NCBI RefSeq assembly: GCF_000024205.1
Contig: NC_013216.1
Coordinates: forward strand, 868,001-932,000
DNA from: Desulfofarcimen acetoxidans DSM 771
GTDB lineage: Bacteria > Bacillota > Desulfotomaculia > Desulfotomaculales > Desulfofarciminaceae
Direction of reading: 5' to 3'
Length of the DNA: 64,000 nucleotides
In this document: piece by piece, positions 2,079 to 14,702 of the stretch
How positions within the stretch are numbered: the stretch's first letter is position 1
How the letters are laid out: the number at the start of each line of letters is the position of its first letter
Program-made: the position numbers and the translations under genes
The notes under the pieces: model-generated
Seen by the model: the letters and a program-made list of their open reading frames with translations, nothing else
Databases searched by the model: none
Told to the model about the DNA's origin: nothing

Positions 2079-3803
2079 TCAATAAATGTTAATCCACTCG
2101 GGATAGTAATTGCCATAGTAGCCAGGTTGCCCGCTGATACCACGAATTAATTCTTTAGGCGGTCCACCTGCCATAGGTTGATAATACAATGAGCCGCAAT
2201 TATAGTTAGTTAACCGGAGGAATAATAAACCCTGACCGTCAGGGGAAAGGTGCGGGGCATAATCAGCCGTATCAACTGGTCCGCTTGTAACATCTAACTC
2301 TTTACCATCCGCCGTTCTGTGCCAAATTCGCTGCCCTGGGACCAGGACACCAGCCTGCTCTTGGCCTTCCCAGTCCAATGTTTCTGTTCCCCTGCAGAAC
2401 AAAATGCCGCTTGCAGGAGTTGATAGCCACCTGGGTTGAGTATCAACCTGACCAGTTTTCCCACAATCACTAATTTGACCGGTTTTCACGTCAACGATAT
2501 GTAAGCGTTTTTGAATAGTTGCTTCCCGGCCACCACCTACAATATAAGCCAATTGACTGCTGTCGGGTGCCCAATCAAGCCATTGGGCATAGGCCAATCC
2601 ACAACCCAGATCGATCGACTTTTTTTGTGGTATATTTAGCACTTGCATGGCGACCCCATCGGCCGATATTGAAGCCGAATTGGGTTTTAAATAGTAGGCC
2701 AGGTAGCGTCCGTTCGGGGACCACTTTAGCCCGGTGGCAACTCGGGTATAGATTTCATTTTCCATTTTGCCAGTTTCACCCAGGGTCAGTAGATTGGTAT
2801 GATCGCCTTTTAATGTGATCTGGTCAATTTGCAGAGGATGTTTTTCATTTCTAGGCAGAGAAATGGCTAGGCTTTGCCCATCCGGTGACCAGGCCAAGCT
2901 CTCAATTATTTCGCTATTCTGTGGCCACAAGCTTGTTGTGGTGACCACGCCGGTTTTTAAAGAGGAGATTTTCAAGTTGCCATCTGGAATATACTCTTCT
3001 TGAGGGTCTTTAGTGGTATAAGCAAGCAGATTTTCTGTTGGCGACCAGGATGGGGTAATATAGACTGGTCTTTCGTCTAACTGTATAGCGCCGGTCCCAT
3101 CAGCTTTTACCACCCAGAGATACTGCCTGCTGGCATATTCATCACTGATATCGCTCTGCAGATAGGCTAACCATTCACCATTTGAAGACCAACCCACGAT
3201 TTCTGCCGGGCCAGCCTCTGTGAGACTGATTGGTGTGCTATCAGTCTGCCTGCCATCTACCAGCCACAAGTGGCCATCACTGGTGAAAGCTACTCGGGCG
3301 GCAAAAGCCGCCATTTCAATCCGTTCCGGCTTGGGGAGTGGGACTGGTTGGCTGGTGGTAATTTGGGCCATTGACGCAGCTTGATCCCATTTGACCCGGC
3401 CCCCTAGGGCGGATGCCAGAAAATTGAGGGAGACTTGTAGTCGATTGTTTATTATTTGTGGTGGGGTGGCGAGTTCAAACTGATGGCCATTTTGCCAAAC
3501 TTCACGATCACCCGGTTTCAGAATAATCGTTTGATTACCTTTAACGATGGTAGCTGTGTTGGTGGCTGAGTCCCAAGTCACACTGGCTCCTAAAGCGTTA
3601 CTAATCTCCCGCACAGGTACGATTATCCATAAATAATTGCATTCATCGCTCTGCAGCCGAGGTGGCTCAGACAGTTCAAGTTTTTGACCGTTTATAGTAA
3701 CCGTAATTGCTGATTGGTCAGCTAAAGCAGGTGAACTTAAGCCACCTCCTATCAGGAATAATATAGCGATTGCCGTCCATAACCATAAATTGGGTTTGTT
3801 CAT
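2079..3803 (-). CDS. Secreted stalk-domain protein with TolB-like propeller
   Basis: A protein of about 574 residues. A signal peptide (WLWTAIAILFLIGGGLSSPALA) precedes a copper-amine-oxidase N-terminal type stalk domain (motifs PVREISNALGASVTWD and LNFLASALGGRVKWD). The rest is a series of TolB/PD40-type beta-propeller blades marked by W-S-P-x-G/E-x-x-L-A motifs, for example SWSPTENLLAYT, AWSPDGQSLAIS and KWSPNGRYLAYY. Start chosen at the ATG at 3801-3803, seven bases after AAGGAGGG. It probably acts outside the cell as a binding or scaffold protein; no catalytic site is visible. A weakly related stalk protein follows upstream. Confidence 0.85.
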   Translation of the reverse strand: MNKPNLWLWTAIAILFLIGGGLSSPALADQSAITVTINGQKLELSEPPRLQSDECNYLWIIVPVREISNALGASVTWDSATNTATIVKGNQTIILKPGDREVWQNGHQFELATPPQIINNRLQVSLNFLASALGGRVKWDQAASMAQITTSQPVPLPKPERIEMAAFAARVAFTSDGHLWLVDGRQTDSTPISLTEAGPAEIVGWSSNGEWLAYLQSDISDEYASRQYLWVVKADGTGAIQLDERPVYITPSWSPTENLLAYTTKDPQEEYIPDGNLKISSLKTGVVTTTSLWPQNSEIIESLAWSPDGQSLAISLPRNEKHPLQIDQITLKGDHTNLLTLGETGKMENEIYTRVATGLKWSPNGRYLAYYLKPNSASISADGVAMQVLNIPQKKSIDLGCGLAYAQWLDWAPDSSQLAYIVGGGREATIQKRLHIVDVKTGQISDCGKTGQVDTQPRWLSTPASGILFCRGTETLDWEGQEQAGVLVPGQRIWHRTADGKELDVTSGPVDTADYAPHLSPDGQGLLFLRLTNYNCGSLYYQPMAGGPPKELIRGISGQPGYYGNYYPEWINIY

Positions 3804-7000: not shown

Positions 7001-7532
7001 TGGCAGTCACCTCGCTTTCAATGACCTTTGACAGCTTTTTTTCTATTACTGCAATATGCCCGCCAAAGTCGCTAATGTATTTCTCTAAGTAGGCATAACC
7101 GAACCGTGCTAAACGGTCTTTATACTCAATAATTACTAAGGCGTTATTAGTCTCCTTTACAGCCTTAAGTAACTTTTGTAGACCTTTACGGTTTTCATTT
7201 AAACCACTGGCAATATCACGAAAAACAGCCTGAATAGCATATTTGTTATTTGATGCATATTCAGTAAGCCTTCCTATTTTTCGATCAAGATTCCCGGCAT
7301 CAGCCTATTTTTGCGTAGATATCCTGGCGTAGGGAAATACGGTATTTTGAATTCGGCTATATTTTTTGCCCTCAAAGGATTCTACTTGGGACATTTTATA
7401 GCGGTGATGGCTAGTAGGAGTTCTTTCTGGAACTAATATCTTTTTCTTTTCCCAAACACGTAAAGTATTAATACTAACCCCTAAATATTTAACTGCTTTG
7501 CCAATACTTATATGGTTTTCCATCCTAATCAC
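6957..7532 (-). pseudogene. tnpA: IS607 serine recombinase TnpA, interrupted by TAG
   Basis: The frame starts with a MerR-like helix-turn-helix (ISIGKAVKYLGVSINTLRVW) and enters the serine recombinase catalytic motif YARIST with nucleophile S72. It is cut after codon 75 by TAG (7305-7307). The same frame then continues without further stops for the rest of a normal TnpA, including FRDIASGLNENRKGLQKLL and VIIEYKDRLARFG, to TAA at 6957-6959, overlapping tnpB. Total length of 191 codons is normal for the family. One nucleotide change explains the break; read-through or reading of UAG as sense is unlikely but not excluded. Confidence 0.85.
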
Positions 7533-8875: not shown

Positions 8876-10102
8876 CTATCCCCTGTCCGACCTGTAAAGC
8901 TGGTTCTTTGAAAGTAAGGAAAAAACCAGCCTTACAAACTTCCTAGCTGTAAGAACCTGAGCTCGTTTATGGGCATGTTTTTTTGATTCTTGAAATTTTT
9001 TTTGATAGTAAGCTCGGTACTCGTCATTATGTCTCCTCAAACTGTCCGCAGCTTCTATCAGATAATACCTGAGATACCGGTTTCCAGCCCTATTCAGGGG
9101 TTTATCTTCACCGTCAAATTCGCCGGATTGATTGCTATTCCAGGTGATACCTGAAAATTTAGCTAACTGGGACTGATCTTCGAACTTGTTAATATCCCCA
9201 ATTTCAGAGATAATGCCGGCGGAAAACACTGGCCCAATTCCCTTGATTGACATCAATGGATTCGAGAGCTTGGCCATATCCCTGGCAATCACACTGTCCA
9301 ATTTGCGGATGGTTTGCTCAAAAAAGCGGATATTATTCATACTGGTTTCAAGAATCAGATTAACCGAATCCGTGAGCTTCGGACTCATCCGGTAGGATTC
9401 ACGGCAAATTCGTTTTAGCTCAGTAGCCAATGTTTCAGGGTTAGAAAATTGCTTATTTCCTTTATCCACAAGCAATTGAACCAAGTCTTCAAGTGGTGTA
9501 TTAATAATTTCTTCCGGGCCAAAAAAATCGGTAATAATAGACATGCTGGTGGCTCCAAAGATATCACTGAATACATCACCATAATTACTAAATTTCATAA
9601 ACAACATAGTTAAAAAATAACTTTTTTCTCGCACAAGTGAACCCACCAGGTGAAACCTGTAACGGGTCAGTCGCTGTAGCGGAAGATACATCTCATCAAC
9701 CTCGTAAGGTTTAGGTAATCTGCCGTGTCTTAGTTTTTCAGCTATGATATAAGCGTCATATGCATCGTTCTTGCCCTTTGGAGGATAAGACTTCTTGAAG
9801 TTCTTGATACTTCTGGCATTGAGTTGGTAAACTGTAGGCCTGTATGGCTTTAATTCTTCGGTGATTAGTAAATAATTCATCAAGTGAAAGTGGTATAAAG
9901 AAGTAGCTTCCATTCCAAAAACAACATGATCAAAGCTATCTTTAATCGATAACTCTTTAGTTTTAGATGCCAAACTCTCGGCACCTGAAATGGAGTTATC
10001 GAAAACTAACTTTTTCAACAAAATCGTTCCGTCTAATTTCATAAAGCAAGCCACATTCTTATTCTTACCAATATCAATGCCAACATGCAAGGATATTGTC
10101 AT
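8876..10102 (-). CDS. IS110-family transposase (DEDD recombinase)
   Basis: A 408-residue protein with an N-terminal RuvC-like DEDD domain (GIDIGK, VFGMEATSLYHF, KNDAYDAYIIAEKL) and the C-terminal Tnp20 domain (MSIKGIGPVFSAGIISEIG, LAKFSGITWNSNQSG, AGNRYLRYYLIEAA). The serine of NQSG corresponds to the catalytic serine of this family. IS110 enzymes act with a bridge RNA made from a non-coding end of the element; a 5' location is expected for the IS110 subgroup. No terminal inverted repeats are expected. The frame is intact, so the element may be active. Confidence 0.92.
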   Translation of the reverse strand: MTISLHVGIDIGKNKNVACFMKLDGTILLKKLVFDNSISGAESLASKTKELSIKDSFDHVVFGMEATSLYHFHLMNYLLITEELKPYRPTVYQLNARSIKNFKKSYPPKGKNDAYDAYIIAEKLRHGRLPKPYEVDEMYLPLQRLTRYRFHLVGSLVREKSYFLTMLFMKFSNYGDVFSDIFGATSMSIITDFFGPEEIINTPLEDLVQLLVDKGNKQFSNPETLATELKRICRESYRMSPKLTDSVNLILETSMNNIRFFEQTIRKLDSVIARDMAKLSNPLMSIKGIGPVFSAGIISEIGDINKFEDQSQLAKFSGITWNSNQSGEFDGEDKPLNRAGNRYLRYYLIEAADSLRRHNDEYRAYYQKKFQESKKHAHKRAQVLTARKFVRLVFSLLSKNQLYRSDRG

Positions 10103-14152: not shown

Positions 14153-14219
14153 CTACCTTTCGCAGAGTGTTATGAAAGTTTATAACTCAATTCCTTTCAT
14201 AACGCGCTGCGAAAGGTAG
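14153..14219. repeat. Long imperfect inverted repeat, 26-bp arms
   Basis: Arms 14153-14178 and 14194-14219 pair over 26 positions with only two mismatches around a 15-base loop; the outer part is CTACCTTTCGCAG. No T-run follows. It may be a small miniature element or a stable RNA hairpin. Confidence 0.6.
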
Positions 14220-14248
14220 CTTGTAAGCAATGCCAACTATAGCTATAT

Positions 14249-14316
14249 GGGTGAATAAGCATAAGTCTGGCCTATTGGCAAATAATCCGAGGCAGACCTA
14301 ATGCTTGAGCCTGTAT
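14249..14316 (+). ncRNA. Structured RNA-like element, copy A
   Basis: The segment GGGTGAATAAGCATAAGTCT...CAGACCTAATGCTTGAGCCTGTAT can fold into an outer stem (TAAGCAT with ATGCTTG), a second stem (GTCTG with CAGAC) and an inner GCC/GGC hairpin. A paralogous copy at 14428-14500 has the same layout with compensating base changes. Strand is inferred from neighbouring reading direction only. Confidence 0.45.
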
Positions 14317-14427
14317 GGGAAGTATCAGTAAGTGTGTATTTCAAAAAATATCTTCAAAAATATCTTCAAAAATATCGAAAATATTGTTTAGAAGAACTTG
14401 TAAATCTCTCAAATTGCCAAGTTATAA

Positions 14428-14500
14428 GGGTGAGCGAGTATAAGTCCGATCCACTACATCGGAAAATAAACCTGGGTGGACTTAATGTTCGAGCTTGTAT
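14428..14500 (+). ncRNA. Structured RNA-like element, copy B
   Basis: Second copy of the element at 14249. Outer stem CGAGTAT with ATGTTCG, second stem AAGTCC with GGACTT, inner CGAT/ATCG hairpin, then the shared end GAGCTTGTAT. Relative to copy A, paired positions change together (for example A-T to G-C and T-A to C-G). I do not recognise it as a known riboswitch or ribozyme. Between the copies lies a short A/T-rich tandem repeat (AAAAATATCTTC units, 14345-14378). Confidence 0.45.
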
Positions 14501-14702
14501 AAAAGGGCTTTGGTTAAAATGAGTATCAAACTAACAGTTAAATATAGGAGTAATCGCGGTGCGGCCTTACCAGCCATCCCTCTTTTTTAAGGTTTTTATA
14601 AGACCAACGGCTAAGATATAAGTGTGTATAAAAATTATGCACAAACAATAATGGAAAATAGATGATTTTGAAAAGCCAAGGCGGAATTGGGAGGATGTAA
14701 TA

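Follow-up and report, generated by a model that had tools for sequence, protein, structure and literature searches.

A lineage-restricted, modular hairpin repeat in Desulfofarcimen acetoxidans, probably of BOX-like organisation

The BOX elements of Streptococcus pneumoniae are built of ordered, distinct modules with a variable number of tandem units, occur also as lone modules, are predicted to fold in the manner of an RNA, and are dispersed in many intergenic copies within one lineage, where they occupy 125 places and contain short boxB repeats (PMC3049150). The repeat described here from Desulfofarcimen acetoxidans DSM 771 is likewise modular and ordered, with variable tandem units, lone units, a folded core and dispersal over intergenic places of one lineage; unlike BOX, it occupies 10 places, has units of about 175 nt, is without established terminal inverted repeats or target-site duplications, and carries a phage-gene remnant at three places. 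The likeness is one of organisation, drawn by analogy with the description of BOX rather than from homology to boxA, boxB or boxC. With the MITE-type repeats RUP, ERIC and Correia, it shares an imperfectly palindromic core, dispersal, nearness to insertion sequence (IS) copies and the lack of coding capacity, but defined ends and target duplications were not established for it, no transposase ends that match were recognised, and tandem ordered units are unusual in MITEs. With the REP elements moved by TnpA-REP (RAYT), it shares hairpins, and the Y1 transposase family is present in the genome (35 matches); however, no core lies beside either of the two longer Y1 reading frames (4.21 and 4.24 Mb), a single core (3621 kb) abuts what appears by eye to be an IS605-type end, and REP elements are much shorter than the core of about 84 nt found here. 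The repeat resembles the large phage RNAs ROOL and GOLLD in having several structured domains and, in part of its copies, a link to phage DNA, but it repeats a short domain instead of forming one large ornate fold, and Rfam gives no match.

The window, a stretch of 64,000 nt comprising positions 868,001 to 932,000 of NC_013216.1, contains two such units at 882 kb of the genome. An earlier note had described two alike structured elements here, and both exist on the + strand, separated by a gap of 101 nt and lying 179 nt apart from start to start. Scores below refer to R1, a covariance model built from 11 copies of the repeat and used for the family searches.

14153 to 14219, no strand assigned: inverted repeat of 26 bp with a 15-nt loop, immediately 5' of the CTTGTAA of core 1 and outside the repeat family; a partial relative lies at 2330 kb.
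14220 to 14226, + strand: candidate promoter-like CTTGTAA motif, 17 nt 5' of the TATATG of core 1 (CTTGTAW pattern in 12 of the 14 full copies).
14242 to 14319, + strand: core copy 1, subtype A, an interrupted hairpin of about 80 nt with a 6-nt deletion in the apical part (R1 match 79.9 bits; fold z -2.83).
14320 to 14420, + strand: linker separating the two cores, AT-rich and weakly conserved save for its 3' end (judged by 61-70% identity of linkers and tail vs 88-95% of cores between the 1958 and 3984 kb arrays).
14397 to 14403, + strand: candidate promoter-like CTTGTAA motif, 18 nt 5' of the TTATAA of core 2 (same pattern, 12 of 14 full copies).
14421 to 14503, + strand: core copy 2, subtype B, with GCGAG...TTCG arm variants and apical AAAATAA (R1 match 85.4 bits; fold z -2.58).
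14548 to 14651, + strand: 3' block, GCGGCC..CCAGCCATCCC..AAGGTTTTTATAAGACCAACGGCTAAG.., downstream of the array (found by genome search at four places, each 3' of a core array).

Both cores follow a common layout, ATATAAG-tgaat-AAGCAT-AAGTC-ca-GCC-(apical part with CGG-ACAAATAAA-CCG)-GGC-ta-GACTT-aATGCTT-ga-GCTTGTAT. Against dinucleotide shuffles, the + strand folds better than its shuffles (z -2.8 for copy 1 and -2.6 for copy 2), whereas the - strand is weaker (z -1.5 and -0.2). Over 181 nt, core copy 2 together with its linker shares 85% identity with the B unit found at 3984 kb. As the earlier note had supposed, the elements belong to no known RNA class: Rfam 15, searched at gathering and at relaxed thresholds, holds no matching family, and the relaxed matches were chance ones only, mostly of microRNA models on the strongly folding 26-bp hairpin at 14153-14219, whose one relative in the genome is the partial one at 2330 kb. 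The sole Rfam match at gathering score within the window is a T-box leader (RF00230, 46273-46543, + strand, 105 bits). On the 3' side of the array, the stretch at 14.65-15.4 kb that had been taken for integrase debris is not confirmed as such, since it holds three reading-frame fragments, none of which reaches the cut-off of any Pfam family; elsewhere in the window (8876-10102, - strand), a reading frame of 408 aa has by eye the look of an IS110-type transposase.

That the two elements form an isolated pair, or are riboswitch-like, finds no support: they are one array of a dispersed family with nine further places in the same genome and no consistent neighbour gene. BLAST of the organism's own genome with copy 1 gave the first sign of this, returning further diverged copies; R1 brings the family to 14 strong copies plus 2 partial ones, spread over 10 places, with E-values down to 1.8e-19. 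Three units stand at 1958 kb and two each at 3984 kb and in the window; 2372 kb has one full and one partial copy, 3347 kb one full and one truncated copy, and the remaining places are 484, 521, 752, 1869 and 3621 kb. The covariance-model search for homologues proposed in the earlier note thus yielded further copies, all confined to this genome: R1 found none among 39 relatives, none among 397 further genomes of the phylum and none among the 112 others searched in the order (overlapping sets; about 500 genomes for order and phylum). Absence from close kin is weakly tested by these searches, because those of the order and phylum were run under stricter filters and the set of relatives had only one other genome of the family. 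By blastn, 50,697 phage records and the plasmid records gave no match, nor did viral contigs of IMG/VR to exact patterns, both being less sensitive than R1; exact-pattern matches in Moraxella boevrei and Alkalicoccus daliensis are due to chance, scoring 13 bits or nothing under the model. Judged by Rfam and by a text search of open papers on the species, the family is, as far as these show, undescribed so far.

Copies occur singly or in ordered arrays, in which tandem units recur every 170-185 nt (about 175 nt). Each unit combines the CTTGTAW motif with a core of about 84 nt and a linker that varies; the core folds as a single long, interrupted hairpin whose apical loop, AAATAA, is conserved. 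Three subtypes of unit stay recognisable from place to place: A' (GGGTATAAAGCAT), A (GTGAATAAGCAT...TGCTTGAGC) and B (GTGAGCGAGCAT...TGTYCGAGC, whose apical loop is shorter). The order A'-B-A, followed by the 3' block, makes up the longest array, which lies at 1958 kb; the array at 3984 kb reads B-A and the block; that of the window reads A-B and the block; and 2372 kb has A' without other subtypes, together with a partial block. This block, about 100 nt long, occurs at these four places only, always downstream of an array, and its three long copies are 86-89% identical to one another. In 12 of the 14 full copies, a TATA-like hexamer follows the CTTGTAW motif after 14-20 nt, an arrangement that resembles a promoter and may serve as a lead, being a candidate that a generic sigma-70 scan did not score. 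Copy ends differ between places by eye, in a comparison confined to one strain and containing no empty site. Several other features were seen around the copies: terminator-like GGGGATTAACCCTCGGTTTTTT sequences recur beside arrays (in locus L040 at about 7118-7142, and near the cores in L045, L046 and L047); a stretch of 240 bp upstream of the core in L041 is repeated about 2.5 kb further on with 96% identity, as an unrelated second repeat; a RAGATH-18 RNA (RF03064) lies at 2126-2189 (- strand) of L046 near a TnpB-like-looking reading frame; and a fluoride riboswitch (RF01734) lies at 2740-2797 (- strand) of L047.

The base-pair changes quoted in the earlier note are present, namely T-G to C-G (alignment columns 16/74), A-T to G-C (17/73) and T-A to C-G (33/56); since two copies alone could agree by chance, covariation was tested on the 14 full copies. 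The alignment behind these counts and tests was fitted to the model's structure and so leans towards it. When pairs are simply counted over 16 copies, 91% are standard and 16 cells are double-changed, vs 5.8 in column shuffles. Because column shuffles ignore relatedness, a tree-aware null was used, in which every column was simulated along the tree relating the 14 full copies and kept its own change count (3000 simulations). In the inner stem (16 pairs), 93.5% of pairs are standard vs a null mean of 85.7 (p 0.0013), and 12 cells are double-changed vs a null mean of 2.2, a number reached in 0 of the 3000 simulations. The outer stem (7 pairs) does not exceed this null (p 0.11 for pairing and 0.57 for double changes), and in the third, apical stem (CGG...CCG, 3 pairs) 76% of cells are paired and none is double-changed. 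Covariation had been claimed for both the outer and the second stem; it holds for the inner stem, beyond the tree-aware null, while the outer stem falls within it. The structure is thus conserved, and selection on pairing, as the earlier note proposed, is supported by the inner stem. Part of the double changes in the palindrome may have arisen without selection, through templated repair of hairpin DNA. A surplus of G-U over A-C, considered as proof of RNA, was not upheld, as it is no greater in the 14 full copies than the null predicts; with the surplus at null level, the data do not tell RNA from single-stranded DNA.

The cores are also conserved preferentially. When the arrays at 1958 and 3984 kb are compared, identity reaches 95% in the B core and 88% in the A core, vs 61-70% in linkers and tail (Fisher p 1e-6 for the B core vs linkers, and 2e-9 for cores vs linkers and tail). 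Conservation of the 3' block stands at 86-88%. Cores of different subtypes stay distinct, which argues against homogenisation across subtypes. The constraint on cores may have acted in this bacterium, or else in a phage population from which the genome was seeded repeatedly.

A reading frame of 35 codons (MAYIHVYTTPTAGGTDGTQVSEGTG...) lies upstream of A' at 1958, 2372 and 3347 kb and nowhere else in the genome; between its copies, which show few changes, dN is well below dS. In a different genome of the phylum, a homologue of 143 aa stands in what looks by eye like a tail-type gene cluster, and the frame matches the phage family phrog_23562 weakly (E 4e-4). Together, these two similarities suggest by sequence that the frame may be what remains of the beginning of a phage tail-region gene, encoding the protein's N-terminus; the idea that it is a small gene of the repeat element itself was set aside, because the homologue adjoins phage tail genes. 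Phage genes also follow the array at 1958 kb, where a terminase small subunit, an integrase and a tail gene lie downstream on the same strand within 1.8-5 kb. The single copies at 484, 521, 752 and 1869 kb lack the tail-gene remnant, and neither inspection by eye nor a scan of a few neighbours revealed phage genes near them. The second association is with a DDE insertion sequence of about 15 copies, whose transposase gene encodes 604 aa with DUF4277 and DDE_Tnp_1 domains: the IS lies 0.9-1.4 kb from 4 of the 10 repeat places, with p 5e-6 for random placement under a model that ignores avoidance of genes by both IS and repeat, and the gene is within 4.2 kb of 5 of the 10 (near 481, 522, 1956, 3616 and 3982 kb). 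It lies on either side and in either orientation with no fixed geometry, and the two probably accumulate in the same tolerant regions. The IS605-type end at 3621 kb abuts the only core so placed, and no match of the repeat to an IS end or attachment site, which the earlier note had raised, was recognised. No neighbouring gene or orientation is common to the places examined.

We regard the pair in the window as probably a two-unit array of a lineage-restricted, modular, hairpin-forming interspersed repeat that is BOX-like by organisation, of which shorter arrays and single copies would be shortened versions, or single units, of the longest array. It is filed with repeats of the BOX kind on account of its ordered modules, tandem units, terminal block, lone modules, conserved fold and dispersal in one lineage. 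The repeat would have spread as a non-autonomous element along with phage-derived and IS-rich DNA, and its core would be recognised or kept in folded form, either as transcribed RNA or as a hairpin in single-stranded DNA, much as has been proposed for BOX, RUP and REP repeats. Transcription of the repeat and any effect on neighbouring genes would likewise belong to this proposal. Movement, too, would be part of it, terminal inverted repeats and target-site duplications not having been established in the one strain compared.

The main rival, which we consider unlikely, places the origin in a phage: the arrays would be what is left of several prophages, all from a single phage lineage that carried a noncoding RNA or structured late-region element, and the bacterium would hold decaying copies of it. 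The cores and the 3' block would then function together as one large RNA of several domains, or else as a signal for replication or packaging. Such an origin would account for the position of the arrays at 1958, 2372 and 3347 kb, directly 3' of the 5' portion of a phage tail-region gene in which dN is well below dS, for the phage genes that follow on the same strand at 1958 kb, and for conserved cores and block joined by free linkers, a pattern that fits selection in a phage population; but neither the 50,697 phage records nor the exact patterns in IMG/VR yielded a match, and the copies at 484, 521, 752 and 1869 kb have neither the tail-gene remnant nor recognised phage genes nearby, as far as inspection by eye and the few neighbours scanned extend. 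A more specific version, which sees in the arrays what remains of a large multi-domain noncoding RNA from an unsampled phage lineage, made of three hairpin domains related to each other plus a 3' domain and expressed beside tail genes, is somewhat more doubtful still.

A regulatory RNA acting on adjacent genes, as a tandem riboswitch, an antiterminator or a protein-binding leader, is favoured by the covarying fold, the conserved unpaired residues, the promoter-like CTTGTAW...TATA arrangement and the tandem units; we nevertheless hold it improbable, as the downstream gene and its orientation are inconsistent between the places examined, the other 112 genomes of the order were searched without finding a copy, and no Rfam class fits. 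The riboswitch form of this reading is rejected for want of a gene link. That similarity and complementarity arose by chance in intergenic, AT-rich sequence, or that the repeat is just an ordinary duplicated palindrome, would be consistent with an outer stem and a G-U surplus that lie within the null, but R1 E-values to 1e-19 at ten places, inner-stem covariation with a probability of about 1 in 1000 or less under the tree-aware null, and conservation of cores relative to linkers make it highly improbable, and for the family as a whole it is already refuted. Two further candidates were considered and appear less likely: an integron attC, as paired R'/R'' boxes were not seen by eye, and the repeat RNA of a type III toxin-antitoxin system. 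Such RNAs consist of short adjacent repeats, from which a unit of about 175 nt differs in length, and no toxin gene was noticed beside the arrays.

Should the multi-domain phage RNA prove to be the origin, the arrays would represent a new class of phage RNA with a repeated-domain design. For the modular repeat that we favour, the lesson is that neighbouring elements which covary within one window are not necessarily a riboswitch, and that genome-wide copies can reveal a repeat family. With 14 diverged copies that combine covariation with ordered modules, the family is a good subject for studying how modular hairpin repeats originate and what keeps their fold.
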